From positions 1-64,000 of the forward strand of contig JAOMJV010000003.1 in assembly GCA_028351415.1 (NCBI GenBank): a stretch of 64,000 bases of DNA, in the 5' to 3' direction. This DNA is from Candidatus Nitrosopumilus sp. GTDB taxonomy: Archaea; Thermoproteota; Nitrososphaeria; Nitrososphaerales; Nitrosopumilaceae. The notes beneath the pieces were generated by a model. That model saw only the letters and a program-made list of their open reading frames with translations. It was not told the DNA's origin and ran no database searches. The translations under genes and the position numbers were made by a program. Shown piece by piece: positions 11,833-64,000 of this stretch. Each line of letters starts with the position of its first letter. Positions within the stretch are counted from its first letter, which is position 1.

Positions 11833-12915
11833 TTATGGTGATGTGATTTTTTCAAGAATTCTATCAATTACTGTATCCGAATTAATTTCATCTGCTTCAG
11901 CTTCAAATGTTAGAATTAATCTGTGACGTAAAACATCATGAGCAACTTCTTTGACGTCTTCTGGAATTACATACCCCCTTCCATTTATCATTGCATTTGC
12001 TTTCGCTGTTTTTATTAGCCAAATTGATGCTCTTGGAGATGCGCCATATTCAATTATGTTCTCTAAGTCTAATTCGTATTTTTTTGGATTTCTTGTCGCA
12101 TCTATAATTTTTGCAACGTATTTTAAAATTATATTGTCTACATAAATTTTCTCATTGAATTCTTGCATTTCAGTTATTTCATTTAGTTTTACTATTGGAT
12201 TTATTTTGATTTGTATGTTGGATGTGTTCCTTTCCATAATTTTAATTTCCTGATCTATCGTGGGATAATTTATTAAAATTTTTACTGCAAATCTATCTAC
12301 CTGCGCTTCGGGAAGTTTGTATGTACCTTCATTTTCAATTGGATTTTGTGTTGCAAGCACTAGGAATGGTTTATCTAATTGAAAAGTTTCTCCATGAATA
12401 CTAACCTGCTTTTCTTGCATTGATTCTAATAATGCTGATTGAACTTTTGGAGGTGCGCGATTAATCTCATCTGCCAATACAAAATTATGAAAAATTGGCC
12501 CTTTTTGTATTTCAAATGTGCCTGTATTGTTTTTGTAAATTTTTGTACCCAGAATATCTGCCGGAAGTAAATCTGGTGTAAATTGAATTCGCACATTATT
12601 TACGCTAAATATGTCTGCCATTGTTTTTATCATTAGTGTTTTAGCCAATCCTGGAACACTTTCAAGTAATACGTGGCCGTCTGAAATTATGGAAATTATG
12701 ATTTTCTTGATTACTTCTTCTTGACCTACAATATTTTTCTGTGCTTCTTCCATTACGCTCAAAATTATTTTTGAATACTTTGTTGAAATTTCCGTTAATT
12801 CCTGAATGCTTGCATCTGAAATTGAAAAATTTTGATTTGTATTATTTGATGTCAACTGATATTTTTTTAAATTTTTTGAATTAATATTCTGTGGTATATT
12901 CGATGATTGTACCAA
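11833..12915 (-). CDS. MoxR-type AAA+ ATPase
   Basis: GHVLLESVPGLAKT (Walker A), FVLADEINRAPPKVQSALLESMQE, LATQNPIENEGTYKLPEAQVDRF. Confidence 0.92.
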   Translation of the reverse strand: MVQSSNIPQNINSKNLKKYQLTSNNTNQNFSISDASIQELTEISTKYSKIILSVMEEAQKNIVGQEEVIKKIIISIISDGHVLLESVPGLAKTLMIKTMADIFSVNNVRIQFTPDLLPADILGTKIYKNNTGTFEIQKGPIFHNFVLADEINRAPPKVQSALLESMQEKQVSIHGETFQLDKPFLVLATQNPIENEGTYKLPEAQVDRFAVKILINYPTIDQEIKIMERNTSNIQIKINPIVKLNEITEMQEFNEKIYVDNIILKYVAKIIDATRNPKKYELDLENIIEYGASPRASIWLIKTAKANAMINGRGYVIPEDVKEVAHDVLRHRLILTFEAEADEINSDTVIDRILEKITSP

Positions 12916-47955: not shown

Positions 47956-48360
47956 TCATCTTGAATGAAACTTTGCCAGTATCTTCCGTCTGCATTTCTC
48001 CGGATTCTTTTCAATGTCATGCTCCCACAGTCTGAGGACGGACCATCCGTCCCGTCTTAGCTTTCGGTTGTACCTCCTGTCGCGCCTCATGTTGTTCTCA
48101 ATCTTGTCGCGCCAGAACTTTTTTGCAAGCCTTTTTTTTTGGCCGTACCTGTACCCGTGCCAAAAGTCGCCGTCGCAGAATATCGCAATCCTCTTTCTTT
48201 TGTGAGCAAAGTCAGGATTGCCGTACATCTTTGGATACATTTCAAACCTGTACCCCGTGTCTTCAAGCATCTGCTTCATGATAAGATCAATCTTTGTGTT
48301 GCTTCCGCGTATCCTTGACATTACCCATGATCTTTTTTCAGGAGTGAAGATGTCCGTCAT
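47956..48360 (-). CDS. vsr: very short patch repair (Vsr-type) endonuclease
   Basis: DIFTPEKRSWVMSRIRGSNTKIDLIMKQMLEDTGYRFEMYPKMYGNPDFAHKRKRIAIFCDGDFWHGYRYG...RRYNRKLRRDGWSVLRLWEHDI. Confidence 0.92.
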   Translation of the reverse strand: MTDIFTPEKRSWVMSRIRGSNTKIDLIMKQMLEDTGYRFEMYPKMYGNPDFAHKRKRIAIFCDGDFWHGYRYGQKKRLAKKFWRDKIENNMRRDRRYNRKLRRDGWSVLRLWEHDIEKNPEKCRRKILAKFHSR

Positions 48361-48497
48361 GCAAAAAACCTACGCATATGTTTTATCAAACAGTACGTGC
48401 CAAAATTAATGTCTTTTGAACTCTAAAAATAGTGTCCAAATGGAAGTGTATGTGTTTGATGACAACAATTTTAACATAACATGTTTTAGAAATTTAC

Positions 48498-48707
48498 ATG
48501 GTTTCTGTATTAAACACTGAAATTTTAAGAGTACTGGGAACAAAAGACGAAGTAAAGTTAAATGAATTGTATGAAATAGTTGGCAAACATCCTGACTTTA
48601 CGTGGGATCTTTCAGTAAGAAAACACAGAGTCAGAAGCGCACTTGACAATCTAAAAAGGCAAAACAAGGTTGAGCGTTCTGCAGACAGAACCTACAAGTT
48701 AGTTTAA
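48498..48707 (+). CDS. small wHTH-like protein
   Basis: LRVLGTKDEVKLNELYEIVGKHPDFTWDLSVRKHRVRSALDNLKRQNKVERSADRTYKLV. Confidence 0.6.
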   Translation: MVSVLNTEILRVLGTKDEVKLNELYEIVGKHPDFTWDLSVRKHRVRSALDNLKRQNKVERSADRTYKLV

Positions 48708-48726
48708 TTTTTGTTGGATGAATAAT

Positions 48727-49827
48727 TTACTTTATTGTTTTATCATTGAATCTAAATTCAATATCATTGTACTTACATTCTATAATCAGATCTTGATACT
48801 TTCTTTTGACTTCTTCATCAGTTGCAACATCAGTTCCTGAAAGATAACAAACTAATTTTTTTGAATATTTTATTCCATCAATCGTAATATCAGATTTTTT
48901 AAAGATCATTAGTTTGAATAACGCGTCTAACACATCATTCTCATCTGGAAATTTTCCTTTTGTAGTGTGTTTGCCTTCTAGAATTTCAATTATCCTATTC
49001 TTTTTGTCTATGGAAACACTGTCTGCAGTTAAGAAAATTGTTTTTGAATTTCCCATGTCGACGTTGAACTTTCCTTTTTTACCTGGAACATTTTCTAGTT
49101 TTTGATCACTGGAAAATTCTCTGTGTTGAGCTTTTTCTGATTCCTTGTCTGAATCTAGTAAAAATTTTGGTATGTCTGTATGCCAAACTCCCAGTTTCTT
49201 TTCCAGGGATTTGAAACTTCTTACAAAGACCCCCAGTTCTTTCCCCAACCGCCTGTTATTTTCTATTGCAGTTTTTAACAAAGAAGGGATTCTAACTAGC
49301 TGCTTTTGATTCCAATCTTCTACTTTTGGACAATTTGATACTATCTCCTTCACTTGCTCTAGCAATTCATCATTTTCAAATTCAAAACTTGTGAAAACAG
49401 GCTCTCCTTGAGTGCTGGCTTTGCCTTTGCTGGCATTTGCAGCAGCTTTTCCCTTGGGTCTCATCTTTGCCTTTGTATACACGCCAACAATCACATAGAC
49501 TCCCAACCCTGACATCCATGAAATTGTACCTGGCTGAAGCTTGTTGTCATCACCATGTTTTCCATAACTTGCCTGAACTGGAATGATTGTGATCTTTTTT
49601 CCGTGATGACCTAGCGTACTGTAGACTCTTGGAAACGGATAAGTTTTGGTTCTTTTCGGTGTCGTCCACACACTGATGGCAACAACATCGTCTCCGATTT
49701 TAGATTTGAACGATGTGTTGTTTTCTGTCATTGCGTTGTTAAATTCCAATTCTTTTAATCCTGGATCTTTTGAAAAATTGTAAGACTCTCTTCCAAGTGT
49801 CACTTCAATAATTTCCGGTTCTACCAT
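48727..49827 (-). CDS. candidate restriction endonuclease partner of adjacent Dam-type methylase
   Basis: Follows the methylase gene with a 22-nt gap; RIIEILEGKHTTKG is a possible nuclease core. Assignment is by context. Confidence 0.4.
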   Translation of the reverse strand: MVEPEIIEVTLGRESYNFSKDPGLKELEFNNAMTENNTSFKSKIGDDVVAISVWTTPKRTKTYPFPRVYSTLGHHGKKITIIPVQASYGKHGDDNKLQPGTISWMSGLGVYVIVGVYTKAKMRPKGKAAANASKGKASTQGEPVFTSFEFENDELLEQVKEIVSNCPKVEDWNQKQLVRIPSLLKTAIENNRRLGKELGVFVRSFKSLEKKLGVWHTDIPKFLLDSDKESEKAQHREFSSDQKLENVPGKKGKFNVDMGNSKTIFLTADSVSIDKKNRIIEILEGKHTTKGKFPDENDVLDALFKLMIFKKSDITIDGIKYSKKLVCYLSGTDVATDEEVKRKYQDLIIECKYNDIEFRFNDKTIK

Positions 49828-49849
49828 AAGTAAAATCTGTTAGTCTTGG

Positions 49850-50713
49850 TTATATGTAAAATATTTTTTTAAGTTCACCATTTTTATCAAGATTAATTTT
49901 GATATCCTTGCTGAAAATTAATATCTCACGTGATTTTTTGTTATCGGACATTTTTTTATCAGTGGCCATTGAATACGACCACTTGGGTTCAAGAATAGTG
50001 TGACCCTTGTAGAGTTCCCTGATCGAATCTATGTTGTTGTAAGACATAATCCATTTTTTCTTTTTATCATTTTTTAGAATTTCAGCCAATCCTTTGTGAT
50101 CAAAATTTTTGTGAATCTTGCCATCATTCCCGTACAGTTGGCTTTCAATCAGATACGGAGGATCAAGGTACATCAAATCTTTTTTATGACTTTTAATTGA
50201 TTTTTTAAAATCAATGCATTTGATGGACAACAAGTTTTCCACTTTGAAGTTTCTAATTCTGTCAACTGATGACTCTGTAAATCTTGGATTTGTGTCAATT
50301 GTTCCGTTCGTCTTTTTCTCCCTTGCCATTCCAACTGCAAGTGGGTTTCCAGAATGTGACGTTCTGTTCAGAACATAAAATTCCGTAGCATTTGTCAATC
50401 TGTTTTTTGCCTTTGGGTGTTTTTTCTGCATTTTTTTGTAATCTTCCTCGGTAAATTTTCCGGGCTTGTGCTTCTCGACTTTCTTTGCAAGTCTTTGGGG
50501 GTTTTCAAGCATCTCCTGCCAAAAATCAACCAGCGGCTGAAACTTGTCGTATCCCGTAACCTTAATTCCCTGCTGGGCACAAAATATCTCCAAAGAACCC
50601 CCTCCAAAGAACGGTGAGCACAGAGTCTTTGGCTCTAGCGGCTCTATGTATTTCCAAATTGTCTTTACTGCTCTTGATTTACCCCCCGGATAGCGCAGTG
50701 GGGATTTTATCAT
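49850..50713 (-). CDS. Dam-family N6-adenine DNA methyltransferase
   Basis: KSPLRYPGGKSRAVKTIWKYI, SPFFGGGSLEIFCA, DLMYLDPPYL. Confidence 0.92.
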   Translation of the reverse strand: MIKSPLRYPGGKSRAVKTIWKYIEPLEPKTLCSPFFGGGSLEIFCAQQGIKVTGYDKFQPLVDFWQEMLENPQRLAKKVEKHKPGKFTEEDYKKMQKKHPKAKNRLTNATEFYVLNRTSHSGNPLAVGMAREKKTNGTIDTNPRFTESSVDRIRNFKVENLLSIKCIDFKKSIKSHKKDLMYLDPPYLIESQLYGNDGKIHKNFDHKGLAEILKNDKKKKWIMSYNNIDSIRELYKGHTILEPKWSYSMATDKKMSDNKKSREILIFSKDIKINLDKNGELKKIFYI

Positions 50714-50722
50714 GATTTTTGA

Positions 50723-51448
50723 TTAAATGTTGTGTTTTATAGTTCTACAATATCTGCAATAGGATTGAACAATAATTTTTTTATCCTTCATTTTTCTATA
50801 TCCAAACAGTCTTTCAATTTCATCATACCCTTTAGCTTCTTCCCCGCATCCTTTTCTTGCACAAAATGCCTCTTGAGGAAAATTATGGAATTTTTTTTCA
50901 AAGTTTAATTTTTCTTCATTTAAATAATTTATGAGATCTTTTATGTCATCTTTTACCCATATATCATTAAACAGTGGAGATTTTTTAGAATTTTCATTCC
51001 ACTTTCTAAGCTGAGAGCCCTCTACAATCATTATTAGATGATAAATATTTTTATATTCTTTTATGAATTTTCTATATTTTATGATATCTTCTTCTAATAA
51101 ATTTTCATGTGCTTCAACAATAATTTTTCTATCGTTAATACGAAATCCAAAAATCATCATATCTGGAATATACACGTAATTTTTTGAGTTTACTTCTAGG
51201 GGAAACTTTCTATGTTTAAATTCAATTTGGAATTCTTTGTCCTTCATATTATCTAAAATCTTTGTTTCCCATTTTGAAAAATCTCTATTTGGGTTAAAAT
51301 TTGTAAAATCTACTAAATCTAATTTTACTGCTTTCTTTTTTTTCTTTTTGTAATGTGAACTTTTATCCTTATTTTTTAAAATTTCAAATAATTCTCTAAA
51401 TGCGGAAGAACCAGAACCTAAAATTTTAAATTTTTTATTCGAACTCAA
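50723..51448 (-). CDS. PD-(D/E)XK-like protein with C-terminal zinc finger (island gene)
   Basis: YIPDMMIFGFRINDRKIIVEAHENL nuclease-like core; CARKGCGEEAKG...SYCRYCR. Confidence 0.45.
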   Translation of the reverse strand: MSSNKKFKILGSGSSAFRELFEILKNKDKSSHYKKKKKKAVKLDLVDFTNFNPNRDFSKWETKILDNMKDKEFQIEFKHRKFPLEVNSKNYVYIPDMMIFGFRINDRKIIVEAHENLLEEDIIKYRKFIKEYKNIYHLIMIVEGSQLRKWNENSKKSPLFNDIWVKDDIKDLINYLNEEKLNFEKKFHNFPQEAFCARKGCGEEAKGYDEIERLFGYRKMKDKKIIVQSYCRYCRTIKHNI

Positions 51449-52418
51449 TTTTATATATACACTCCTTATTTATTTTTAGATATTTTTGTTTTAAAAATAT
51501 TTCATCATACGGGTTACGAATTTCATCATATAGATATATTTCTGAAGAATCCACATTACACCATATCTGCAAATAATAGTTATTTCCTATTTCTTGAGAT
51601 ACTTTGATTTCATTTTTACTCCAAAAAATAATCGGTTTGCTATTTTTTGTACCCTTTACCTCGATGTATTTGTCATATTTTAAATCAGAATTATTTCCTG
51701 TGAATGAAATTATGTCGTATCCTAAATTTTCATCCAATGCGCTGACTCTCTTTACAGCAGAGCTAAGAATTCCTTCATTCATATTTAACAGTCTTTCTTT
51801 TTCCTTTTTTACACATTCAAGTTCAGCTAATTTCCCAATTTTCTTCTTTAATTCCTCCCTTTCATCAATATCTTCTTCTGTAACTGGGTGATTATTGCGT
51901 AATTTGGAAAGAATTTCTGATAATTTGTTGTCTATCAAAAATACACCTTTTTTAGCTTTGATTAAATTAATTTCTTGTAATAATTGCCTGTACATAGCTG
52001 GTATTTTGTACATTTCTTTAATTTCAATTTTATTTATTGCGTCTACATGCGCCCAATCAATTACTGATCTCGAAAAAACTTCTTTTACTATTGGGTTATC
52101 CCAAATTTTAGATTCTTTTATGATTTCTATTAATAGTTTTTTTTGTAATGAAAGTGATTTGTCTATCACTTGTTTTTTATTTTCTCCCAACATTATTGAA
52201 TCGTATAGTTTTTCTCCGTTCTTATTTATTGAAATTTCCTGATTATTTTTTTTAAAAATTTTTAATTCAAAACATGTTTGTAAAAGTTCATTAAAATTTA
52301 CATTATGTTCTGAATAATCCCTTTTGTATATGTCCTCAGTAAATTTTATTTTTAAATTGTTATTCACTCCAAATTGTTTAACTATGCATAATATCTGATT
52401 TATTTCAGACGTTATCAT
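51435..52418 (-). CDS. DUF3883-like domain protein (PD-(D/E)XK fold) C-terminus
   Basis: ENLGYDIISFTGNNSDLKYDKYIEVKGTKNSKPIIFWSKNEIKVSQEIGNNYYLQIW. Confidence 0.7.
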   Translation of the reverse strand: MITSEINQILCIVKQFGVNNNLKIKFTEDIYKRDYSEHNVNFNELLQTCFELKIFKKNNQEISINKNGEKLYDSIMLGENKKQVIDKSLSLQKKLLIEIIKESKIWDNPIVKEVFSRSVIDWAHVDAINKIEIKEMYKIPAMYRQLLQEINLIKAKKGVFLIDNKLSEILSKLRNNHPVTEEDIDEREELKKKIGKLAELECVKKEKERLLNMNEGILSSAVKRVSALDENLGYDIISFTGNNSDLKYDKYIEVKGTKNSKPIIFWSKNEIKVSQEIGNNYYLQIWCNVDSSEIYLYDEIRNPYDEIFLKQKYLKINKECIYKIEFE

Positions 52419-54318
52419 TTAGGTACTCTCTTATTCTGTTGATCACTCTGCCATACATTTCTAAATTTTCATGTGACATATTTGTAAAATTGTTATAATC
52501 TATATCCAATCCACCTACTTGGATATTATTTTCGTTTAACATTCTCATTAATTCTCTTTCCTTATTTTCTAAATTTAATTTTATATCTTCGTCAATAGTT
52601 TGTCTGGTGAAAAGAATGTCTATTTTTGTATCTCTTGCTTGTTCTTGTGTTAGCCCATATCTCCAAATTCTAAATTTACTTTGAATCCAATTTGCAGCAT
52701 TATACATTCTATCCACATAAATTGCATGGTGACATTCTCTGTGTAGGGACACAGATTCTGACAATGATGCAGGATTTGCAATTAAAATATTATGGTCATC
52801 CTTATGTTTAAAATCTTCAATAATTTTTTCTTTATTGTTTGTAGGATCGTCCTCATCTGATTGAGGAATTTTTCCATAAATAATATCTGAATTATATCCT
52901 AATTCTTGAGCAATATTTTGTACTTTTTCTATAGTTTTTCTAAAACTACACCAAATCAATAATTTTTCTGGAGGATTTTGTTCCATGGATTGTATTATCA
53001 TTTCTTTTAATACAATTAATTTTCCCGGTGTTTCATATTTCCAATAATCTTCAAGTATAGTTTCTAGTGGAACTCCTTCTGAATCAAAAACTTCGTTAGT
53101 GTATTGATTTTCAGATTGAAGCAATGATGGATCTGTTGCGGCTTCTAAAAGATACATAATGTGTCTATCAATGTCTGAAACCGCCGAATTTCGATCTTCA
53201 TTAAAAGTTGGAATCCCTCTGGCTAACATGTCATTTGCAATTGTTCTGTAAATTCTTGTTTGATCTTTTCCCATTGGACAATGAATGTAATTTGGTATTA
53301 CTGGTTCTAAATCTAAATCGTTTAATCCAATTCTCATCCAATATGGATTAATTTCTTCATAAATTCGTGTAAATTCTGCAGGGTTTTGTATCCGTCTCTC
53401 AAATTGCCCGTATTCTCCTAGTATGTTCTGTGCAGGGTTAAGAAATTCAAACTGTGTCCAAATATCTGCAAATTTATTTGGTAGCGGGGTTCCAGTTAAA
53501 ATCATTCTTCTAAATGCAAATGTTGCAAATTCACTAATTGCCATCCATGTCTCTGATGCTGGATCTTTAATGTGGTGAGCTTCATCCAGTATCACTAAGA
53601 ATCTATTCTGTCTTATGAAATTCTGAATTAATTCTGAATCTCTTCGTACTGTGTCATAATTAATTAGGAAAATTTCGTGACTTGTATCCCTTTCATAGAT
53701 ATGTATACGTTCTTCCTTAGTTCCTACAATTCTTTTAAATTTTTGAATGTTTTCACCCGTGATAATTTGATATTCTGTTTCCCATGTCTTGAATGCTGAT
53801 TTTGGACATATCACGAGTAATTTTTCAACATTGTTTTGTTCAGGTTTATCTTTTAATAAAAAATAACTTGCGTACGCTGTCCATGTTTTCCCACTTCCTG
53901 GAATTGAAAAATTTGCTACATTTTGAACAATTTCTCCATGTCTGACCACTCTATTCTGAAATGGAGTTAGTTCGTGTTGTGGCAAAAAGCCTGGAATTCT
54001 AATTGCTGGAATGTTATCCACATTCCTTTGCTTCATGTCTAATGCATTGTTTCTATTTTGTTGATATGTTATTCGTTGCTGTTGTAAATTATCCAGAATT
54101 GTTTGAATTTGGTTGTCATTTTCATGTTCTAAATTAAGATCGTCTAGAAATGATATCATGTCTTGTAATATTTGTGGGTTATCATTAATCACCTCAAAAT
54201 TATTTTCTGATTTCTTTGTTGCATTTCTTTTAAGATGACTTAACAGAAAAATATTTTTTTTGTTTTGATCATCGACTGATAGACTAAACCCCTTACTTAT
54301 TTTTGAAATGCCTATCAA
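52405..54318 (-). CDS. SNF2-family DEAD-like helicase
   Basis: NFSIPGSGKTWTAYASYFLL, FLVILDEAHHIKDPASETW, ILTGTPLPNKFADIWTQFEFLNP, NILIANPASLSESVSLHRECHHAIYVDRMYNAANWIQSKFRIWRYG. Confidence 0.88.
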   Translation of the reverse strand: MIGISKISKGFSLSVDDQNKKNIFLLSHLKRNATKKSENNFEVINDNPQILQDMISFLDDLNLEHENDNQIQTILDNLQQQRITYQQNRNNALDMKQRNVDNIPAIRIPGFLPQHELTPFQNRVVRHGEIVQNVANFSIPGSGKTWTAYASYFLLKDKPEQNNVEKLLVICPKSAFKTWETEYQIITGENIQKFKRIVGTKEERIHIYERDTSHEIFLINYDTVRRDSELIQNFIRQNRFLVILDEAHHIKDPASETWMAISEFATFAFRRMILTGTPLPNKFADIWTQFEFLNPAQNILGEYGQFERRIQNPAEFTRIYEEINPYWMRIGLNDLDLEPVIPNYIHCPMGKDQTRIYRTIANDMLARGIPTFNEDRNSAVSDIDRHIMYLLEAATDPSLLQSENQYTNEVFDSEGVPLETILEDYWKYETPGKLIVLKEMIIQSMEQNPPEKLLIWCSFRKTIEKVQNIAQELGYNSDIIYGKIPQSDEDDPTNNKEKIIEDFKHKDDHNILIANPASLSESVSLHRECHHAIYVDRMYNAANWIQSKFRIWRYGLTQEQARDTKIDILFTRQTIDEDIKLNLENKERELMRMLNENNIQVGGLDIDYNNFTNMSHENLEMYGRVINRIREYLNDNV

Positions 54319-54319
54319 T

Positions 54320-55624
54320 TTATTTATTTATCAGGTTACTAATTTTTTCAGTTATATCATTTAATGTTTCTATGAAATCTTCATCCTCTAAATTAGATGT
54401 AATTTTATTGGTATCTAATGCTAATAGAAAATCCTTGAATTTTTCAAACTCCATACCTGGGTCATCTGCAACACTGTCATATGCGTCTGCCACTGTCTCT
54501 AAATTCTTGTATGATTTTTCAATTTGACTTTCATCCATTTTTTTAATAAATGATACATCCCCTGTAGTTTTAACTTTTTGATAAACTTGATCATTCAGTA
54601 AGTATTCATTTGTTAATGTTGGATTTTTCTGAAAACACTTGTTTATTGATCTTATTTTACCATGTGATTTTTTTGGTTTAAGTGCAGTAGTCAATAATGC
54701 CCACTTTCTTGCTTCAATATCCACCTCAGATACCCCACTCCCTGGTTCTCTTAATGCAGTTAAAACATTTAAAATATTTTGAAAATATGTTAATCCTCCT
54801 GCATTTTCTTTATTTTGAATCAAGTTATATTTTCGAGGCTTGTCTAACACGTTGTTCAAAAAATCATCAATTAAATCTATGAGTTCTTTTTCCTTAATGA
54901 TTCCCTTCCAATTACCTTTTACTTTTGGAAATGCATTTTTCATATAATTTTTATCTTCATTTGTAGGATTTTGCCAATCCTTGATGTACTCTGTATCCAA
55001 TAATCTTTTTCTAATGTTCAAACATTCTGTAACTGCAGAATAGTTTTGCTTAAAATCTTCTTTTCTTTGTAATCTTGTTTCTAAATCCTCCAATTGTTTT
55101 ATGTTCATTTCAGGTAAAACTACCACTTCAACAAATCCATACTTGGCATCTTGTTCATCAATTTCTAAATGATATCTATTTGCAATCCTTCTATTCCCAT
55201 TCCAAATTATGCCCGTATTGCTAATTATTGCAGGATCATTTTGACCTATATTTATTAACTCTGATTTTAAATCTCCTGAACTTACATTAGAATAACTTTC
55301 AGCTGTTAATAGGATATTCCGTATTTTATCTTGATGTTTTAAGTTCTCATAATCCAATTCTTCCCCTGTTTGTTCCAGTTCATATTTGTAATCCTCTAAT
55401 TGATCTGTAATTCTCCCATTGTTATAATTTAATCTTAATTGTGTTATTGGTATTGTATACACCGGTAAATCTTTTACATCAGTATCGCTAAAAACTCCAA
55501 CGGGATATGTCTTCCATTTAGCATCTGTTGTTCCGTCTACTGTTATGCTTACCCCATGAGCATTTAGATCTTGAAACTGTTTAATTATCTCCTTTCTTGA
55601 TGTTGTCCAACTATTATTACTCAT
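54320..55624 (-). CDS. ParB N-terminal-like domain protein
   Basis: VYTIPITQLRLNYNNGR...ISNTGIIWNGNRRIANRYHLEI...GFVEVVVLPE (GNRR motif). Confidence 0.65.
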   Translation of the reverse strand: MSNNSWTTSRKEIIKQFQDLNAHGVSITVDGTTDAKWKTYPVGVFSDTDVKDLPVYTIPITQLRLNYNNGRITDQLEDYKYELEQTGEELDYENLKHQDKIRNILLTAESYSNVSSGDLKSELINIGQNDPAIISNTGIIWNGNRRIANRYHLEIDEQDAKYGFVEVVVLPEMNIKQLEDLETRLQRKEDFKQNYSAVTECLNIRKRLLDTEYIKDWQNPTNEDKNYMKNAFPKVKGNWKGIIKEKELIDLIDDFLNNVLDKPRKYNLIQNKENAGGLTYFQNILNVLTALREPGSGVSEVDIEARKWALLTTALKPKKSHGKIRSINKCFQKNPTLTNEYLLNDQVYQKVKTTGDVSFIKKMDESQIEKSYKNLETVADAYDSVADDPGMEFEKFKDFLLALDTNKITSNLEDEDFIETLNDITEKISNLINK

Positions 55625-55689
55625 TACATAGACCTCTCAAATTACAAAGTACATAACATTTTTTTATATCTTGTAGTGTAATAGTCATA

Positions 55690-58600
55690 TTATTCCTCCG
55701 TCACCTTTGCATCACAGATACTCTGGTACGAACAGAACATACATGCATTGTAGCTAGGTGTTGCCTCAAAGTTCTCTAGCAAAATCTCCTTTGTCATGCC
55801 AATGATTGTATCCACTGTCTCCTTAACTGACTCCTCGGTCACTGGATACTCTACCATCTTGTCTTTTTCCACATAAAACAGGGATGCTTTTACGGGCAGT
55901 TCCCCCTTTAGTTTCTCCACTGCCATTGCATAGATGTTCAGCTGCGGGTCTATCTTGGCCTTGTTTTTTGACTTTACGGTTTTGCCAGACTTGAAATCAA
56001 CCACCTCGTACTTTCCATCAGGATTCTTCTCCAACCTGTCTATCCTTCCAGTAAACGTAATCTCACCAATCTTCACATCAAATGGTACCTCCAAACCTAC
56101 AAGCTCGTTCTTTGTTTCTTTTTCCCATTTGACATACGTCTTGACCATTCCTTCAGCTCTCTCAGTTGCGGTGTCTTCCTCTGATTGACTTTGATAGGAG
56201 TTGAAAATCCACTTGTCCTTAATTTTTTCTAGCGCTTTTTCTTCAACTACTTCCTCTCCCTTCATTTTCTCATTTGCAACTTCTTCTGTGATTGCATGAA
56301 CTACGTTCCCAAGATCCAATGCGACACTGGATGGACTTGGAACGCGTAAAATTTTTTGAAACTTGAATTTTAGCGGGCAGTCTGAATATGCCGTAATACT
56401 ACTTGGAGACAGTGTAAAACTTTCTTTGTTGATCAACGGAATTTTATCTCCGGTTAGTTCCTCAGTTAAATTGACATCATCAATGTTTATCTTCAACACT
56501 TCTTGCGCGTCAAAATTATCAAAGCTCCCATGTTTTTCAAAATGTTTTACTCTTGCCAGTTCTACAATTCTGTGTATCGCAGTTTTTAGATTCAACTGAT
56601 TAATTGCACTTGCTGCTTCTTTTTGCAAGTCTGCCTTTACTCTGTCAATGATTTCCTCTGCCTGCATGTTCATGGAATCTGATTCCTTGAAATCAATCAA
56701 TTTGATCAGTGGATTTTTCTCATAATCTAATTCCGTCAAGAATTGGGATGGATCCTTTTCGTTTACATTTCCAGGATATTTCTTTGGATACAGCAAAAAT
56801 AGCATGTTCATGGCACGGGTCATCCCTACGTAAAAGAGCCTGCGCTCTTCTTCCAGGTGCAACTGGCTGGTCTCTATGGTTCTGTCTACTCCTCTCATTA
56901 GTTTTTGAGGCACGTGAAATGTTCTATCCTTGTATGACACTGGAAACCTTTTCTCAGCTAAATCCGTAATGAACACTACGGGAAACTCCTTTCCCTTGCT
57001 TTTGTGCAATGTCTGAACGTTTACCGCATCCTCAAAAAGTACGTCCTTAATCTCAATTTCAAATTCACCTAAAATAGAAACGTGGATTAAAAATTCTGAT
57101 AAGGGTTCATCAGAATAGATGTCCTGAAATTCTTGTGTTATCTCGTAAAATTTATTTAATAAAATAATATTTTTCTTGTCTTGTATTTTTTCTGAATATA
57201 TTGATTTTTTATAGATGTCCGAATACGACATCATAATTTTATACACAAGTTGTGAAATGGTGGCAGTACTGGAAAAAGTAATTATGTTGTCAATTTGTTC
57301 AATCAGTTCCTTGATTTCTTCTTTTTGAGTAATATCAAACTCGTCAAACTTGCGCAGTGTATCTAAAACATAGTCGTCTTGGCCGTCATAGACATGTCGA
57401 GCTTTCTTGTGTGCGGCATGTGTGATGACTGTAATATTTTTTTCTGCAACTCCCTGACTCTTTAGCAGTCTGAATACTTCTGCGCCAGATGATAGTGGGG
57501 AACTGGTAATTTTTAAAAATGAAATCAAATCCAGTATGCCCGGACTTGAAAATATGTTTGACTCTCCGGTAAACGTTGCAGGTATGCCAAATGATTTTAG
57601 TGTCTTTGCAAATTTCTGTCCTTCTGTCTTTCTTCTTGACAAGACTGTAATGTCGCTGTAGGCAATTGGCTTGGTAGTCCCGTCCCGTCTTTTTAGTGGC
57701 TTTCCAATAATTTTTTGAATTGTGTTGACTGTAAATTCCACTTCCCCGTTATCTGAGGCTGTTCGGATAACTTTGATTAGTTCCCCCTCCTCATGTGATG
57801 AAAACAGTGACTTTTTCACTCTGTTGGATATTGGATTTAGAAGCTGGTTTGCCAATTTGACAATGTTTTGATTGCTGCGATAGTTTTGGCTTAGTTCTAC
57901 CGTGTCACAGGTGTACGATGACTTGAAGTCATCAAATATTCCCGAATACGCTCCCTGAAATTTCATTATGCATTGATCATCGTCCCCTACTGCCGTGATG
58001 TTTCCGTGCTTTGCCAACAGTTTGAGAATTTCCATCTGTGAAAAATTGTTATCCTGAAACTCGTCAACCAAAATGTGTTGGAATTTTTTCTGATAATTTG
58101 ATAGAATTACAGGATCTTTTTGCAGCAACTCTACAGTTTTTGTAATCATGTCATCAAAGTCTATCAGTTGTTTTTCTTTTAGATGCGCTTGATACGCGTA
58201 ATACACCTTGTTGAACTCGTTTAATTTTTTAAAGAATTTGGTCTGCTCTTTTACCTCGTCTTCTTCGGGGTCTCTTGAATCCAATATTTTTAAATTTTCA
58301 TCAACATGCTGCTGAACCCTGTCGGGTGAGATCATCTCTTCCTTGAAATTACTTATTGCCTCTAAAATTGCAGAGTAAATTCTAACTTGGTTATTACCTA
58401 GCTCAAGATAGTTTGAATCAAAATTAAACTTGTCTGTGTTCCTGATACACCATACTGTCTGTGATGATTTTTTTAAAATTTTTGTATCCCTTCCCAGACC
58501 TGACTCCATAAAGTTTTCCTCCAGAATTTCTTTTGAAAAAGCATGAAACGTGCTAATTTTTGCGTCAATGATTCCGTGCTTTTCCAGTCTCTGCTTCATC

Positions 58601-58785
58601 TCCCCTGCAGCTTTGTCTGTGAATGTTAAGCACAAAATTGATGACTGCTCCACATCCGACTTTACTAGTTGGAGAATTTTTTCAATGATGACTCTGGTCT
58701 TTCCGCTTCCGGGACCTGCAATTACAAGCAACGGGCCTTTGGAGTGACTTGCAGCCTTTGCTTGCTGTTCGTTTAATTCAAACAT
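55690..58785 (-). CDS. UvrD/Rep-like SF1 helicase fused to C-terminal RecB-like nuclease with Fe-S-type cysteines
   Basis: GPLLVIAGPGSGKTRVI, ILVDEFQDNN, VQTLHKSKGKEFPVVF; C-terminal SDCPLKFKF, EVVDFKSGK, PQLNIYAM, CMFCSYQSIC (AddB/Cas4-like Cys arrangement). Confidence 0.9.
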   Translation of the reverse strand: MFELNEQQAKAASHSKGPLLVIAGPGSGKTRVIIEKILQLVKSDVEQSSILCLTFTDKAAGEMKQRLEKHGIIDAKISTFHAFSKEILEENFMESGLGRDTKILKKSSQTVWCIRNTDKFNFDSNYLELGNNQVRIYSAILEAISNFKEEMISPDRVQQHVDENLKILDSRDPEEDEVKEQTKFFKKLNEFNKVYYAYQAHLKEKQLIDFDDMITKTVELLQKDPVILSNYQKKFQHILVDEFQDNNFSQMEILKLLAKHGNITAVGDDDQCIMKFQGAYSGIFDDFKSSYTCDTVELSQNYRSNQNIVKLANQLLNPISNRVKKSLFSSHEEGELIKVIRTASDNGEVEFTVNTIQKIIGKPLKRRDGTTKPIAYSDITVLSRRKTEGQKFAKTLKSFGIPATFTGESNIFSSPGILDLISFLKITSSPLSSGAEVFRLLKSQGVAEKNITVITHAAHKKARHVYDGQDDYVLDTLRKFDEFDITQKEEIKELIEQIDNIITFSSTATISQLVYKIMMSYSDIYKKSIYSEKIQDKKNIILLNKFYEITQEFQDIYSDEPLSEFLIHVSILGEFEIEIKDVLFEDAVNVQTLHKSKGKEFPVVFITDLAEKRFPVSYKDRTFHVPQKLMRGVDRTIETSQLHLEEERRLFYVGMTRAMNMLFLLYPKKYPGNVNEKDPSQFLTELDYEKNPLIKLIDFKESDSMNMQAEEIIDRVKADLQKEAASAINQLNLKTAIHRIVELARVKHFEKHGSFDNFDAQEVLKINIDDVNLTEELTGDKIPLINKESFTLSPSSITAYSDCPLKFKFQKILRVPSPSSVALDLGNVVHAITEEVANEKMKGEEVVEEKALEKIKDKWIFNSYQSQSEEDTATERAEGMVKTYVKWEKETKNELVGLEVPFDVKIGEITFTGRIDRLEKNPDGKYEVVDFKSGKTVKSKNKAKIDPQLNIYAMAVEKLKGELPVKASLFYVEKDKMVEYPVTEESVKETVDTIIGMTKEILLENFEATPSYNACMFCSYQSICDAKVTEE

Positions 58786-59612
58786 TATGGAATCACCACG
58801 TACAAGGGAACGTTCATTGCAGACTTGTCTTTGATTGCTTCTCTAAAATCAGTTGTGTTGAAATTCACGCCGACAATTGAATTTAACGCATCAACACATG
58901 TTTCACTGTATGGTGATGTCATAAATTGCCTGAATCCTCTATACGCCAAAGGCTGACTGTCCATGAATTCATTGCAATATGGGTTCAAGTCCAGATCGAA
59001 TCCTATCCTTGGTTCTCCTGGTAATCTGTTTGATATTTTCAAATTTTTTCTTGCCACGTTGGCATTGCAAATTGACTCATCCCATAGAATTCCCTGTATT
59101 TGTCTCTCTGCCCTGAACTGATGATACTCATTGCTGTTCATTGTGTTGCACTGAGTCAACGAATAATCAATTGCATAGTGACCCAACTCATGACGCAACA
59201 ATACTTTTTTTGCAATGTTGTTCATATCTCTATGAATTTCCTGTGACGTCTTTTGACCGTTTGGCATGTTCATGAAAATACTTCCATTTGGATCATTAAT
59301 GATTTTATTTTCAAAATATGATGCAAGCCAATTGATTCCACTTTCAAGGAAGTAAATCCCCCAGTCTGCCGGAGACACGTGCGGTGATACGTAATATGCC
59401 AACACGTCAATGTCTGCAATCTCGTTTCCTTCCATCACGCTGTCAAATTGAATTTGTCTTTGGTTGCCATGATCTGTTTCCGGTTGATATCGGTTGAACT
59501 GTTGATGTGACATTCTTTGTATGTGTCCGTCAAAAAAATCGATGTCTCCCTCAAATGGCCGATTTAAATCCATTAATCTTATCTGCAATGGATTTAGTCT
59601 CTCGTGCATCAT
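58785..59612 (-). CDS. predicted zinc metalloprotease (HExxH)
   Basis: KKVLLRHELGHYAIDYSLTQ (HELGH) with downstream ERQIQGILWDESICNA candidate third ligand; overlaps both operon neighbours. Confidence 0.65.
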   Translation of the reverse strand: MMHERLNPLQIRLMDLNRPFEGDIDFFDGHIQRMSHQQFNRYQPETDHGNQRQIQFDSVMEGNEIADIDVLAYYVSPHVSPADWGIYFLESGINWLASYFENKIINDPNGSIFMNMPNGQKTSQEIHRDMNNIAKKVLLRHELGHYAIDYSLTQCNTMNSNEYHQFRAERQIQGILWDESICNANVARKNLKISNRLPGEPRIGFDLDLNPYCNEFMDSQPLAYRGFRQFMTSPYSETCVDALNSIVGVNFNTTDFREAIKDKSAMNVPLYVVIP

Positions 59613-60358
59613 CTTCTTCTTGCCTCCAAAACAGATAGCGGCTTTTCAATTCCATTTTTGTTATTGGAACAAGTCGTTTGGTAGTTGCACAGTTTGCAAA
59701 ACGAGTTCACCTGACCGTCTGGCATCTCTTTGGACTTTATTGCATTTTCAATTGCTGTTACCTTGCTGATAATCCAGTTTGACATGTCCTCTTTTTGTAT
59801 TTCAAATGATACGACGTCATTCATGTCAAGATAGACTATCGTCAGTTTCTCCACTGGAATTATGTTCTCAAATATTGTTCCATAGATTTGAATCTGCTTG
59901 ATGTGTGAGTCAAACGGCAATAGTCCTTCGCTTGTACTTTTGGAAACATTATCCATTGTTTTAAACTCGATAATGTTCTTCTCTTCTGGATCGTAGCAAT
60001 CCAGCCTTCCAAAGACCGGAATGTCTTCCCCGTTTATGCTTACTGTGTATTTTCCTTCAAGCTCGTTCCAGCTGTATGCCTGAGTTATCTGGTGAAGAAA
60101 GTTACCCCTGGTTGTCCTCCATATGTTGTCCTCCACCTGTGTCAGGTCTATTTTTTCAAAGGATGTCCTGGTTTTTTGAAAAAATGCCTTTCTTGGACAG
60201 CCTAGAAGGGCACTGACAGAGTACCCCATTGTATTTCTGGCAGGATAAATCCTGTTCTCCCTTCCCAGAAACTCTATGATTTTGTCTGGTGTTTTGATTT
60301 GTTGTGTTCTTCTCATGACAACCTTAGTCGGCAAATCTATTGATGCATGCAAATGCAA
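59609..60358 (-). CDS. Cas4/RecB-like nuclease; likely start ATG at 60316
   Basis: ALLGCPRKAFFQKTR, VFGRLDCYDPEEKNIIEFKTM, HIKQIQIYGTIF, FCKLCNYQTTC. MRRTQQ start at 60316 avoids overlap with the operator. Confidence 0.75.
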   Translation of the reverse strand: MHLHASIDLPTKVVMRRTQQIKTPDKIIEFLGRENRIYPARNTMGYSVSALLGCPRKAFFQKTRTSFEKIDLTQVEDNIWRTTRGNFLHQITQAYSWNELEGKYTVSINGEDIPVFGRLDCYDPEEKNIIEFKTMDNVSKSTSEGLLPFDSHIKQIQIYGTIFENIIPVEKLTIVYLDMNDVVSFEIQKEDMSNWIISKVTAIENAIKSKEMPDGQVNSFCKLCNYQTTCSNNKNGIEKPLSVLEARRR

Positions 60359-60383
60359 AGTGCAGAAAAAATCTGCAACTTTA
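60348..60383. repeat. 36-bp inverted-repeat element, left copy; contains palindrome TGCAGA-AAAAA-TCTGCA (60361-60377), putative operator
   Basis: tgcaaatgcaaagtgcagaaaaaatctgcaacttta is the exact reverse complement of 63682..63717. Confidence 0.92.
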
Positions 60384-60426: not shown

Positions 60427-61341
60427 ATGGCTAGCCCAAAAATTACTGTCTTGATTGCTTTAATTGGCAAGCATCCACAACATGTTGAACATTTCATCCG
60501 GGAAAGGGGGTCACAATTAAAGAGAATTCACTTGCTGCATACATGTGACAATGATCAACCTCCCAGCAGAGATGGAAGTGATGGAACATCTGAATGCAAA
60601 TGTTGTGGGATGGGAGGGCTAATTGATTATGGAGAACTATCAAACAAGTTTGTAAAAAAACTACAACGAAAATACAAACCAGAGAAAGGAAAACCCAAAT
60701 CAGGCATAACGATAATTCCTGAACCTTATGATGAAGCTCATGACCTTTGGGAGGTGCAGGATAGAATTTTAGAAATAGTTGGAAATGAACGAGAGGATGA
60801 TAGTGTACAGCTAAATAATATTGCATTGGAAATTAGCGGGGGAACCAACATTGCTGCAGCTGCACAAATATTTGCAATTTACAATTCAGAAATTGTTCCA
60901 TTCTATGTGGATAACAAACCAGATGAGAATGGAAATTGGGTTAGAGACATCATTGTACCTGAGAACTTTGGAAAAAAGTTAACCGCAAAAGCAAAAAATG
61001 TTTTGAAAGTCATTGCAGAATCTGAATTTACAGTAAAACCTAACGGACATTCAGAAACACCTGACGGTGAAGATCCACATCCGGTGAAAGGACAAATTAC
61101 TCGCATAGATCTTGAAAGAAAACTTGATGTGCGAAGAGCTCCGGATGGAATACTGAAGAAACTTGAACAATTCAAACTAATTGAAACTATTTCGCCCTAC
61201 GATGTTTACACGAATACATCTGATGAAGAGGATGACCCTACATGGGAGTTGGTTCCATATTCCTACAATGCCTACAAGATAACAAAAGCTGGAATAATAG
61301 CTGCAAGACGTTTTAAAATATCTGAACAAGTGCAGAAGTGA
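60427..61341 (+). CDS. CARF-like sensor with C-terminal wHTH (Csa3/HFX_2341-like regulator)
   Basis: ITVLIALIGKHPQHVEHFI, ITIIPEPYDEAHDLWEVQDRILEIVG, ALEISGGTNIAAAAQIFAIY (CARF-like nucleotide-binding fold), RIDLERKLDVRRAPDGILKKLEQFKLIET...YKITKAGIIAARRF wHTH. Track start is TTG 60415; ATG at 60427 preferred. Confidence 0.65.
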   Translation: MASPKITVLIALIGKHPQHVEHFIRERGSQLKRIHLLHTCDNDQPPSRDGSDGTSECKCCGMGGLIDYGELSNKFVKKLQRKYKPEKGKPKSGITIIPEPYDEAHDLWEVQDRILEIVGNEREDDSVQLNNIALEISGGTNIAAAAQIFAIYNSEIVPFYVDNKPDENGNWVRDIIVPENFGKKLTAKAKNVLKVIAESEFTVKPNGHSETPDGEDPHPVKGQITRIDLERKLDVRRAPDGILKKLEQFKLIETISPYDVYTNTSDEEDDPTWELVPYSYNAYKITKAGIIAARRFKISEQVQK

Positions 61342-61357
61342 TCTGCACTTTGCATTT
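61331..61357 (+). promoter_or_regulatory. third copy of palindromic element TGCAGA-AGTGA-TCTGCA + CTTTGCATTT
   Basis: Same arms and downstream CTTTGCATTT as the 63.7 kb copy, different 5-nt spacer; overlaps the 3' end of the CARF-like gene. Confidence 0.9.
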
Positions 61358-61391: not shown

Positions 61392-62354
61392 ATGTTAATT
61401 TTTAAAAATTATTTACCTTCTGCAAACTGTTTTAAAATTTATTATAAATGCAATGAGGAATTAGATATCATGGGTTTTGAAGATCATTACAATCCTGAAA
61501 ATGAATCTGACATTATTGATAAACAAACTAAGTTTTTTATCCATTTGAAAAATCATAACATTAAATCATCACCTAATAAGGCTGAATTTATAATATTATT
61601 TGGTTCACTGTTAGAATCAAAAATTAGAAATAAAATTATCAAAGAAATAAACAGTCATCCAATTAGTTATTTGGATGAATTACCAACATTAATCGTTCGT
61701 AGTAAACCCTATGACAGAATTGAAAAAAATAGTTACAATCCATTTGAGCAACTGTCAAGTTTGATTTCACATAATGAAAGAGTGGAAGAGGAAGTGATTG
61801 AGTCGCAATGGTCACATTTGACTGAATCTATAAAGAAATTACCTCCAATAAGTCTTGGTGAATTTGTTTCAAAATGTTATAGTTACAATTCTCCTGGTCC
61901 CATTTTTAAAATGTTGAGTGACTTTGCATTATTTGAAAATTGGGAAAAAAATAACCCAAAAAAAAGAAATTTTGATTTGCATGATAAACAATTTACTATG
62001 TACCTTTTACAAAGAAATAATGTTGTACATGAACTACTTAATACAGAAATAAGTAATACTGAATATATTAAACAAAATTTAGAAAATATTTTAAAAAGTA
62101 TTGTTAGAATGGTGGAAACAGCATTAGAAGTTAGAAGAATTTCTATTGATAGTTTTAAATCCGCTGAAAAAACTAATGTTGATTTTCAATTATCTTGGCT
62201 AAAAAAAATTAAAGGTGATTGTAACAAAAATAAAATGAAAAATTGGAACAAACATGGGTATTCTAAATTGTTTACTACAGAAACAACTGTCAATAAATTA
62301 GATTCAGAATCAGAATATCTGATCAAAAAATTGGGAGGGGATTTAAATGTATGA
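61392..62354 (+). CDS. HEPN-like domain protein, candidate ribonuclease
   Basis: FTMYLLQRNNVVHELLN contains RNxxxH in an alpha-helical C-terminal domain (YIKQNLENILKSIVRMVETALEVRRI). Track start is TTG 61377; ATG 61392 preferred. Confidence 0.55.
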   Translation: MLIFKNYLPSANCFKIYYKCNEELDIMGFEDHYNPENESDIIDKQTKFFIHLKNHNIKSSPNKAEFIILFGSLLESKIRNKIIKEINSHPISYLDELPTLIVRSKPYDRIEKNSYNPFEQLSSLISHNERVEEEVIESQWSHLTESIKKLPPISLGEFVSKCYSYNSPGPIFKMLSDFALFENWEKNNPKKRNFDLHDKQFTMYLLQRNNVVHELLNTEISNTEYIKQNLENILKSIVRMVETALEVRRISIDSFKSAEKTNVDFQLSWLKKIKGDCNKNKMKNWNKHGYSKLFTTETTVNKLDSESEYLIKKLGGDLNV

Positions 62355-63684
62355 TGAAACAAATTTGAAGACATTTATTTATTTAAAAAAAAGTAAAAGA
62401 ATTTCCATCAGAAAACTAGAACAAAAAATTAAAGAGTTACATTTTGACGATGTTCAGGATGAGACTTTTAAAGAAATCCTTGAACAAATTCATTCGTTGT
62501 GCGGGGATGTTTATTTTTCAAAAAATAGATTTGGTGCGGCAATAAAACAGTATGAGTTATGCCTGAAATATAATTCTGGAAACATTCACGCAATAGTCGG
62601 ACTTGCAAACTCATTTCAATCTTTAGGCCTGGATAGCTTGTCTGGGGAAAAATTTACTAAATCTGAGAGTTTTTACGTCTGGAAAAGGACATTTCTTGGC
62701 AATACTTTAGATAATGAACGGGATTTTGTCCCCGAAAATCCCGATGATGCGGGTAATGATGAATTTCAATGCATTCCCAAAAGCCTTCTTTTCAATATTG
62801 CAATACTTGAAAAATCTAAACGCATATTTGAATATCTTGGTAGAGTAGAGCCATCTGCAGATTTTTCAGAATCGTATATTTTTATTGATGATGATTTGTC
62901 CATTGAACAAAATATTGGAGACGATGTTGACAATATGGTTTCTAAATTAGTAAATAATTTTCCACAACTCGAAAAGATTAAAAAATATAATAAAACTCAA
63001 TTCAAAATAGATTCAAAACCATACAAAATTAACTCAAAAAATATTTCACGTACAACAACCCTGTACAGCTGCATTCCAAACGAGACATTGAAATCTAAAA
63101 AAATTAGCTCGTTATACTTTTCATATCTCTTATCTGGTTTTACTGAAAATTCAATTTTAGATAAAATTAGAGACGAATTAAAAATAATTATTAAATCAGA
63201 AAATTATTACATGCGAGAAGATTTCAAAAAAATAATCTTCAAACATTGGTTGGAATGTGTAGGAGATAAAAAATCCCTTCTGTCTATGAATATATCCGAT
63301 GAGACACTAAGCTTAAAACAAATTATTGACGGCACAATAGCTACGGGTCAGATAATCAAAGCTCTCAATCAACAACGGGATAGATTCAATCCTGAAACAA
63401 TTTGTCATAATATTACTAGCAAAAATATTGCAAAGATTTTGACTGAATCAGTAGAAGATTATGTTAAACTATGTGATTCAAATAAAAAAATAAAGGATAG
63501 CACTAATTTTCATTTAGATTCCGGGCCTGGATCTTTATTAGAAATGTTGCAAGATAAATTGCAACAAATGAGTGTGGCTGAAAAACCTCATAAGACCAGC
63601 AAAAACAAGCCTAAAAACACGAGAAAAGATCCTATAACTTACGCCAAATTATATGCTAAAATTAAAAAACTTAGAACTGATTAA
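62347..63684 (+). CDS. TPR-like protein, partner of HEPN-like gene
   Basis: DVYFSKNRFGAAIKQYELCLKYNSGNIHAIVGLANSFQSLG TPR-like; 8-nt overlap with HEPN-like gene. Confidence 0.6.
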   Translation: MYDETNLKTFIYLKKSKRISIRKLEQKIKELHFDDVQDETFKEILEQIHSLCGDVYFSKNRFGAAIKQYELCLKYNSGNIHAIVGLANSFQSLGLDSLSGEKFTKSESFYVWKRTFLGNTLDNERDFVPENPDDAGNDEFQCIPKSLLFNIAILEKSKRIFEYLGRVEPSADFSESYIFIDDDLSIEQNIGDDVDNMVSKLVNNFPQLEKIKKYNKTQFKIDSKPYKINSKNISRTTTLYSCIPNETLKSKKISSLYFSYLLSGFTENSILDKIRDELKIIIKSENYYMREDFKKIIFKHWLECVGDKKSLLSMNISDETLSLKQIIDGTIATGQIIKALNQQRDRFNPETICHNITSKNIAKILTESVEDYVKLCDSNKKIKDSTNFHLDSGPGSLLEMLQDKLQQMSVAEKPHKTSKNKPKNTRKDPITYAKLYAKIKKLRTD

Positions 63685-63717
63685 AGTTGCAGATTTTTTC
63701 TGCACTTTGCATTTGCA
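63682..63717. repeat. 36-bp inverted-repeat element, right copy; palindrome TGCAGA-TTTTT-TCTGCA (63688-63704), putative operator
   Basis: Exact reverse complement of 60348..60383; starts in the stop codon of the TPR-like gene. Confidence 0.92.
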
Positions 63718-63739
63718 CCCACCAATAGTCTTGCTGCCT

Positions 63740-64000
63740 ATGGTTAACATGAACAACAAAAAAAGATTAACCCAAGGGGATTTTGAAACTCTGATGGGGT
63801 TGTTTGGAACAATCCTTGAAAGCTGCGACAGATCAACTGCAAAGCAGATACGTGAGGTACTAGTGGACATAGAACATACGCTTTTTGATTACAATGAGGA
63901 GCATGAAATAAACCAATGCGAATGCCCCACATGTGAAGCTGACAGAAAAAAAGATAGAAAAGAGGGCAAACTTGTCACAAGAGAATTAACTCCAGAGGAC
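63740..64000 (+). CDS. hypothetical protein, 3'-truncated by window edge
   Basis: Not in ORF track: MVNMNNKKRLTQGDFETLMGLFGTILESCDRSTAKQIREVLVDIEHTLFDYNEEHEINQCECPTCEADRKKDRKEGKLVTRELTPED..., open to window end. Confidence 0.65.
   Translation, partial: MVNMNNKKRLTQGDFETLMGLFGTILESCDRSTAKQIREVLVDIEHTLFDYNEEHEINQCECPTCEADRKKDRKEGKLVTRELTPED

Follow-up and report, generated by a model that had tools for sequence, protein, structure and literature searches.

A probable, very divergent HEPN ribonuclease gene between a CARF regulator gene and a TPR-like gene in a marine ammonia-oxidising archaeon

Organization of the locus

The window, by which we mean the whole 64,000-nucleotide stretch of DNA analysed here, lies on contig C23 of a 1.07-Mb, 78% complete Nitrosopumilus assembly, for which the nearest named relative found is the Marine Group I thaumarchaeote AG-319-O22. 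The features relevant to the probable HEPN ribonuclease gene are as follows.

47956-60319 (about), minus strand: probable defence operon; no named system matches the whole
59609-60319, minus strand: Cas4-like PD-(D/E)XK nuclease, divergent from the CARF gene (Pfam Cas_Cas4 3e-7, PADLOC Cas4 5e-15)
60313-60383, minus strand: inverted copy of a 71-nt leader repeat (operator, promoter and 5' end), 86% complementary to 63682-63752
60361-60377: first copy of the putative operator TGCAGA-N5-TCTGCA, between the Cas4-like gene (53 nt to its ATG by the offset used) and the CARF gene (58 nt to its ATG)
60427-61341, plus strand: CARF protein of 304 aa with a probable C-terminal winged helix (Csa3-like layout; PADLOC CARF3, E 7e-11)
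61331-61347: second operator copy, overlapping the CARF stop codon, 53 nt before the HEPN ATG
61377 (TTG) and 61470 (ATG), plus strand: possible other starts of the HEPN gene
61392-62354, plus strand: probable HEPN RNase gene, 320 aa, reading frame open
61965-61982, plus strand: second RNxxxH, RNFDLH (residues 192-197), unaligned to the family motif
62013-62030, plus strand: RNNVVH (residues 208-213), an Rx4H motif aligned to the invariant R and H of the HEPN family
62347-63684, plus strand: TPR-like protein of 445 aa, overlapping the HEPN gene by 8 nt
63682-63752, plus strand: second copy of the 71-nt leader repeat
63688-63704: third operator copy, 53 nt before ATG 63749 of the next gene
63749-64000, plus strand: third plus-strand gene preceded by an operator, 138 aa, continuing beyond the window end

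The minus-strand operon combines the Cas4-like gene, the CARF gene's usual partner in related loci, with genes for an HExxH protein, a UvrD helicase–PD-(D/E)XK fusion, a 434-aa protein, an SNF2 helicase, a NO-VEIN/DUF3883-type protein, a 241-aa protein, a D12 DNA methyltransferase, a 366-aa protein and a Vsr endonuclease. The CARF gene lies directly upstream of the HEPN gene on the same strand. There are five copies of the palindrome on the contig (60361, 61331, 63688, 65649 and 71194), three of them in the window, and the 71-nt inverted repeat brackets the CARF–HEPN–TPR block. Partial leader copies are present beyond the window at contig positions 65660 and 71205 and none is found elsewhere in the assembly; the leaders common within this one locus may be recent duplications. 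The choice of ATG 61392 as the HEPN start is supported by its spacing of 53 nt from the operator centre. The gene had been described from sequence as a stand-alone effector, a description that does not hold: it carries the operator of its neighbours and directly follows a regulator gene.

Beyond the window, the operators at 65649 and 71194 (locus L002) each precede a small ORF of zinc type; the two ORFs are related (MKQRVSKLIPKGKGYN...), a stop codon breaks the second, and a similar protein is encoded beside the CARF gene of genome G029 (L015:11306-11635). Two TFB-like genes, L002:2647-3606 (contig 64646-65605) and L013:16020-16934, have the CARF-locus operator upstream at 52 nt and 139 nt, respectively, and possibly encode an island-specific TFB.

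Relationship of the 320-residue protein to HEPN ribonucleases

The sequence-only reading based its HEPN assignment on an RNxxxH motif in LLQRNNVVHELLN. That segment is indeed present, with RNNVVH at residues 208-213, and the protein has an additional RNxxxH that escaped the earlier reading (RNFDLH, residues 192-197). In composition-preserving shuffles, one RNxxxH arises in 2.5% of cases, two in 0.03% and Rx4H alone in 22%; because 2.5% of shuffles yield one, an RNxxxH is by itself weak evidence. Direct searches with the protein find no homologues in its own genome, 61 relatives or a 398-genome phylum sample, nor in plasmids, phages, viral contigs or the PDB, and no Pfam HEPN model matches it at E≤1.

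A route to relatives is provided by the CARF gene, which leads to RNxxxH proteins in genomes G006 and G029 that are homologous to one another (E 1e-14). Together with ten more members (n = 12), these define a Nitrosopumilaceae HEPN family in which the columns for L, E, W, R and H do not vary, R and H being identical in 12 of 12 proteins. Five of the 12 match Pfam HEPN_RiboL-PSP (best 6e-7) and two match HEPN_Apea. When the window protein is aligned to the family profile, three collinear blocks are matched, FIILFGSLLESKIRN, ISLGEFVSKCYSYNSPGPIFKMLSD and RNNVVHELLN, corresponding to the SxxE helix, the IS-G-V---Y-N segment and RNxxxH. The alignment score exceeds those of all 400 shuffles and of 160 of 161 natural proteins from outside the family, the one exception spanning a shorter stretch. 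The profile link is weak (P 0.008): the window protein scores above all 3000 shuffles with a four-member HMM, its score is reached by 20 of 3000 with the 12-member HMM, and the family's invariant W is missing. The HEPN-like claim is thus backed indirectly, through a three-block alignment with a family whose R and H do not vary.

AlphaFold2 predictions made without homologues have a pLDDT of 37 for the window protein and 39 for its G029 relative, low in both cases because the input carried no alignment. The model of the window protein is mostly helical, which agrees, at this low confidence, with the helical C-terminal region that had been proposed. HEPN membership is likely rather than proven, because the alignment beats shuffles but the structure models are of low confidence.

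Could the protein instead be alpha-helical but outside HEPN, perhaps serving the TPR protein as a structural partner, and carry RNxxxH by chance? The shuffle frequency of the motif, the lack of a Pfam HEPN match, the two low pLDDT values and the missing W would all fit this explanation. We consider it unlikely, since the collinear match is to a true HEPN family and goes beyond shuffles, and since the equivalent position in G029 is occupied by a recognisable member of that family, whose gene is preceded by an operator of the same kind.

Among known groups, the closest likeness is to the RiboL-PSP-HEPN and ApeA-like HEPN proteins (PF18735, PF18739; PMC3710099), which have in common with the window protein the Rx4H motif and the SxxE first helix. 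The relatives of the window protein match these models, whereas the window protein itself is too divergent to do so. It is probably a very divergent member of this already known RiboL-PSP/ApeA type, and the most likely role of the gene product in this marine ammonia oxidiser is defence through RNA cleavage.

Membership of the HEPN family does not in itself imply a link to CARF. A co-occurrence of the two was considered and dropped, because the seeds had been chosen beside CARF genes and, of nine further HEPN relatives located without reference to CARF, just one comes from a genome with a CARF gene. Viral scans with the HEPN alignment and with the CARF alignment returned no relatives.

The G006 protein (L013:17053-18030) ends in a cold-shock domain (Pfam CSD 8e-16), a nucleic-acid-binding addition. 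A second family of R(N/H)xxxH proteins is also encoded beside CARF genes (L041:8184-8936, L042:9682-10797, L043:10382-11548 and L037:12361-13218). Three members have the form R(N/H)HxxHW, and in three loci the gene is divergent from CARF and starts 114–120 nt from a common operator; this may be another HEPN-like effector.

The TPR-like partner

The overlap of 8 nt reported between the HEPN and TPR-like genes is exact (62347-62354). The description of the downstream product as TPR-like is right for one or two TPR-like repeats, while most of the protein is not recognisable as TPR; the Pfam TPR_11 match (E 0.003) falls short of the curated cut-off. A similar pairing recurs in two other genomes. 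In G029 the gene order is CARF, RNxxxH protein, TPR, TPR, so that the order CARF–HEPN–TPR is common to G029 and the window, and in G006 an RNxxxH gene is followed by a TPR gene about 4 kb from CARF. There is also a published precedent in the LA2681 HEPN family, which is fused to, or in an operon with, TPR (PMC3710099). As in LA2681, the window has a TPR gene beside the HEPN gene, but no similarity to a HEPN model was detected in its protein and the pair is preceded by a CARF-locus operator. These adjacencies support the proposal that the TPR protein is a partner of the HEPN protein.

Because of the overlap, translation of the two genes may be coupled, and they are probably co-translated. HEPN toxins are established components of toxin–antitoxin pairs, and the coupled translation together with the recurrence of the adjacency in G006 and G029 would also suit a pair in which an overlapping TPR antitoxin holds a HEPN toxin and the operator does no more than control its own locus. 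Several observations make such a pair improbable: (i) the operator upstream of the HEPN gene is not private to it, being common to CARF, Cas4-like and other genes; (ii) HEPN relatives in G073 and G002 have no TPR neighbour and (iii) the TPR gene comes second in the order and is bigger than typical antitoxin genes.

CARF proteins, operators and a proposed defence regulon

Homologues of the CARF protein occur in 16 of 250 Nitrosopumilaceae genomes; a CARF scan of the genome collection returned only the G029 contig. All 11 homologues match CARF3 models and 10 match HFX_2341_N, and a GGT(N/K) motif is seen in the CARF domain. Pfam recognises no HTH domain in the window protein itself; weak matches of the homologues to MarR (0.003) and DUF6293_C (0.018), as well as a conserved, wing-like ITxxG end, are the source of support for a probable C-terminal wHTH.

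Ten related Nitrosopumilaceae CARF loci were compared with the window. The neighbours of CARF in these loci include type I R-M-like, Cas4-like nuclease, AAA/VWA and HEPN-like genes. Palindromes, mostly TACAAA-N5-TTTGTA and otherwise of a TACGAA type, recur in nine of the ten; in the tenth (L039) a leader some 80 nt long recurs instead. The ten CARF loci, totalling 199 kb, contain 17 exact operators and control loci totalling 103 kb contain none, whereas shuffles give a mean of 0.9 and a maximum of 3. Two spacings stand out. On 21 operator sides an ORF opens with ATG 52–54 nt from the operator centre, the genes concerned being Cas4-like, HsdM, AAA and others. In 9 of the 11 loci an operator lies 12–13 nt before the CARF ATG, unlike the 58 nt seen in the window. 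In G029 there is an operator before CARF and another before HEPN (at 12837), where the ATG at 53 nt opens a short frame preceding the HEPN start. In G006 an imperfect operator lies 13 nt before the CARF ATG.

Unrelated genes in L037, L040, L042, L043 and L044 (Cas4-like and 145–147 aa proteins) begin with MKQ(Q/T)xSxQM behind the operator, as though an operator–promoter–start cassette had been copied onto different genes.

Where an archaeal transcript is leaderless, a site whose centre is about 53 nt from the start falls just upstream of BRE/TATA. The 52–54 nt spacing is therefore suggestive of activation from just upstream of BRE/TATA in a leaderless promoter, and the operator 12–13 nt before the CARF ATG is suggestive of autorepression. 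The published CAPPa/Csa3a site likewise lies just upstream of BRE/TATA (PMC8699464). An alternative is that the palindromes act as terminators, mark the ends of mobile elements or stem from recent duplication of promoters, with no regulator involved and HEPN just a neighbour of CARF. The 71-nt leader copies have clearly arisen by duplication and the palindrome could form a hairpin, but we judge this alternative very unlikely: the same fixed spacings (53–54 and 13 nt) are found in independent loci with differing operator sequences, no T-run follows the palindrome, in divergent gene pairs the operator serves both members and control loci have none.

CARF sensors are known mainly as receivers of type III CRISPR cyclic oligoadenylate. 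A Cas10 palm domain was not found in any of the 11 CARF genomes, six of which are >90% complete and the window genome 78%, so the CARF ligand is probably not a type III cyclic oligoadenylate. A search for a SMODS cyclase gave weak matches in 10 of the 11 genomes, all to one protein of about 450 aa, which is probably a housekeeping nucleotidyltransferase and not a messenger synthase.

Comparison with Csa3a of Sulfolobales reveals a common layout of CARF plus wHTH, the latter being probable here, and its CAPPa motif resembles the present operators in being a palindrome upstream of the BRE/TATA of a Cas4-family gene with promoter-associated copies (PMC8699464, PMC8844856). Published work connects Csa3 with CRISPR genes and with the binding of cA4 supplied by type III systems (PMC8699464, PMC8844856), whereas the targets here would be R-M, Cas4-like, HEPN and AAA genes with no Cas10 found, and the operator is of the TACAAA-N5-TTTGTA type rather than the TCCC-N8-GGGA of CAPPa. 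Csm6 and Csx1 also couple CARF sensing to HEPN output, but in the present locus the two domains reside in different proteins, and their coupling would be through transcription, not allostery. The BrxR-type WYL regulators (PMC9122601, PMC9122589) are likewise a family with a ligand-binding domain that travels with varied defence systems, differing in being WYL rather than CARF and bacterial rather than archaeal.

Gene order, the operator copies with their spacing and the sequence relationships are observed, as is the lack of a Cas10 match. We infer that the CARF protein binds the operator, and likewise the direction of regulation, the ligand, the RNase activity and the role of the TPR protein. 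The reading that we favour, with moderate confidence, is that infection induces a HEPN RNase, which has a TPR partner, and that this enzyme is among the outputs of a CARF regulon independent of CRISPR. The CARF–wHTH protein, probably self-repressing, would sense an infection-linked ligand and act on the palindromic operator, switching on defence genes when the ligand changes. A divergent RiboL-PSP/ApeA-type HEPN ribonuclease and the TPR protein would be made from one transcript; the induced enzyme would cut cellular or viral RNA, such that growth or virus production stops, and the TPR protein may dock, restrain or target it.

For a broader proposal we see roughly even chances: a CRISPR-free CARF–wHTH master switch would run whole defence islands of ammonia-oxidising archaea, responding to a signal of nucleotide type produced independently of Cas10, with its genes (Cas4-like, HEPN–TPR, R-M and AAA/VWA) wired by a transferable operator–promoter–start cassette of fixed 53–54 nt geometry. 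No description of this regulon was found in the literature searched, and an earlier mention, e.g. in the 2020 CARF classification paper, is possible. The proposed regulon would be a novel variant of CARF-based control, with a role comparable to that of WYL/BrxR in bacteria (PMC9122601). Defence islands seem to be under the control of this CARF family in genomes that gave no Cas10 match, which raises the question of which ligand the CARF domain senses. Little is known of antiviral regulation in marine ammonia-oxidising archaea, and the readable operator code provides a list of predicted infection-response genes in these organisms.
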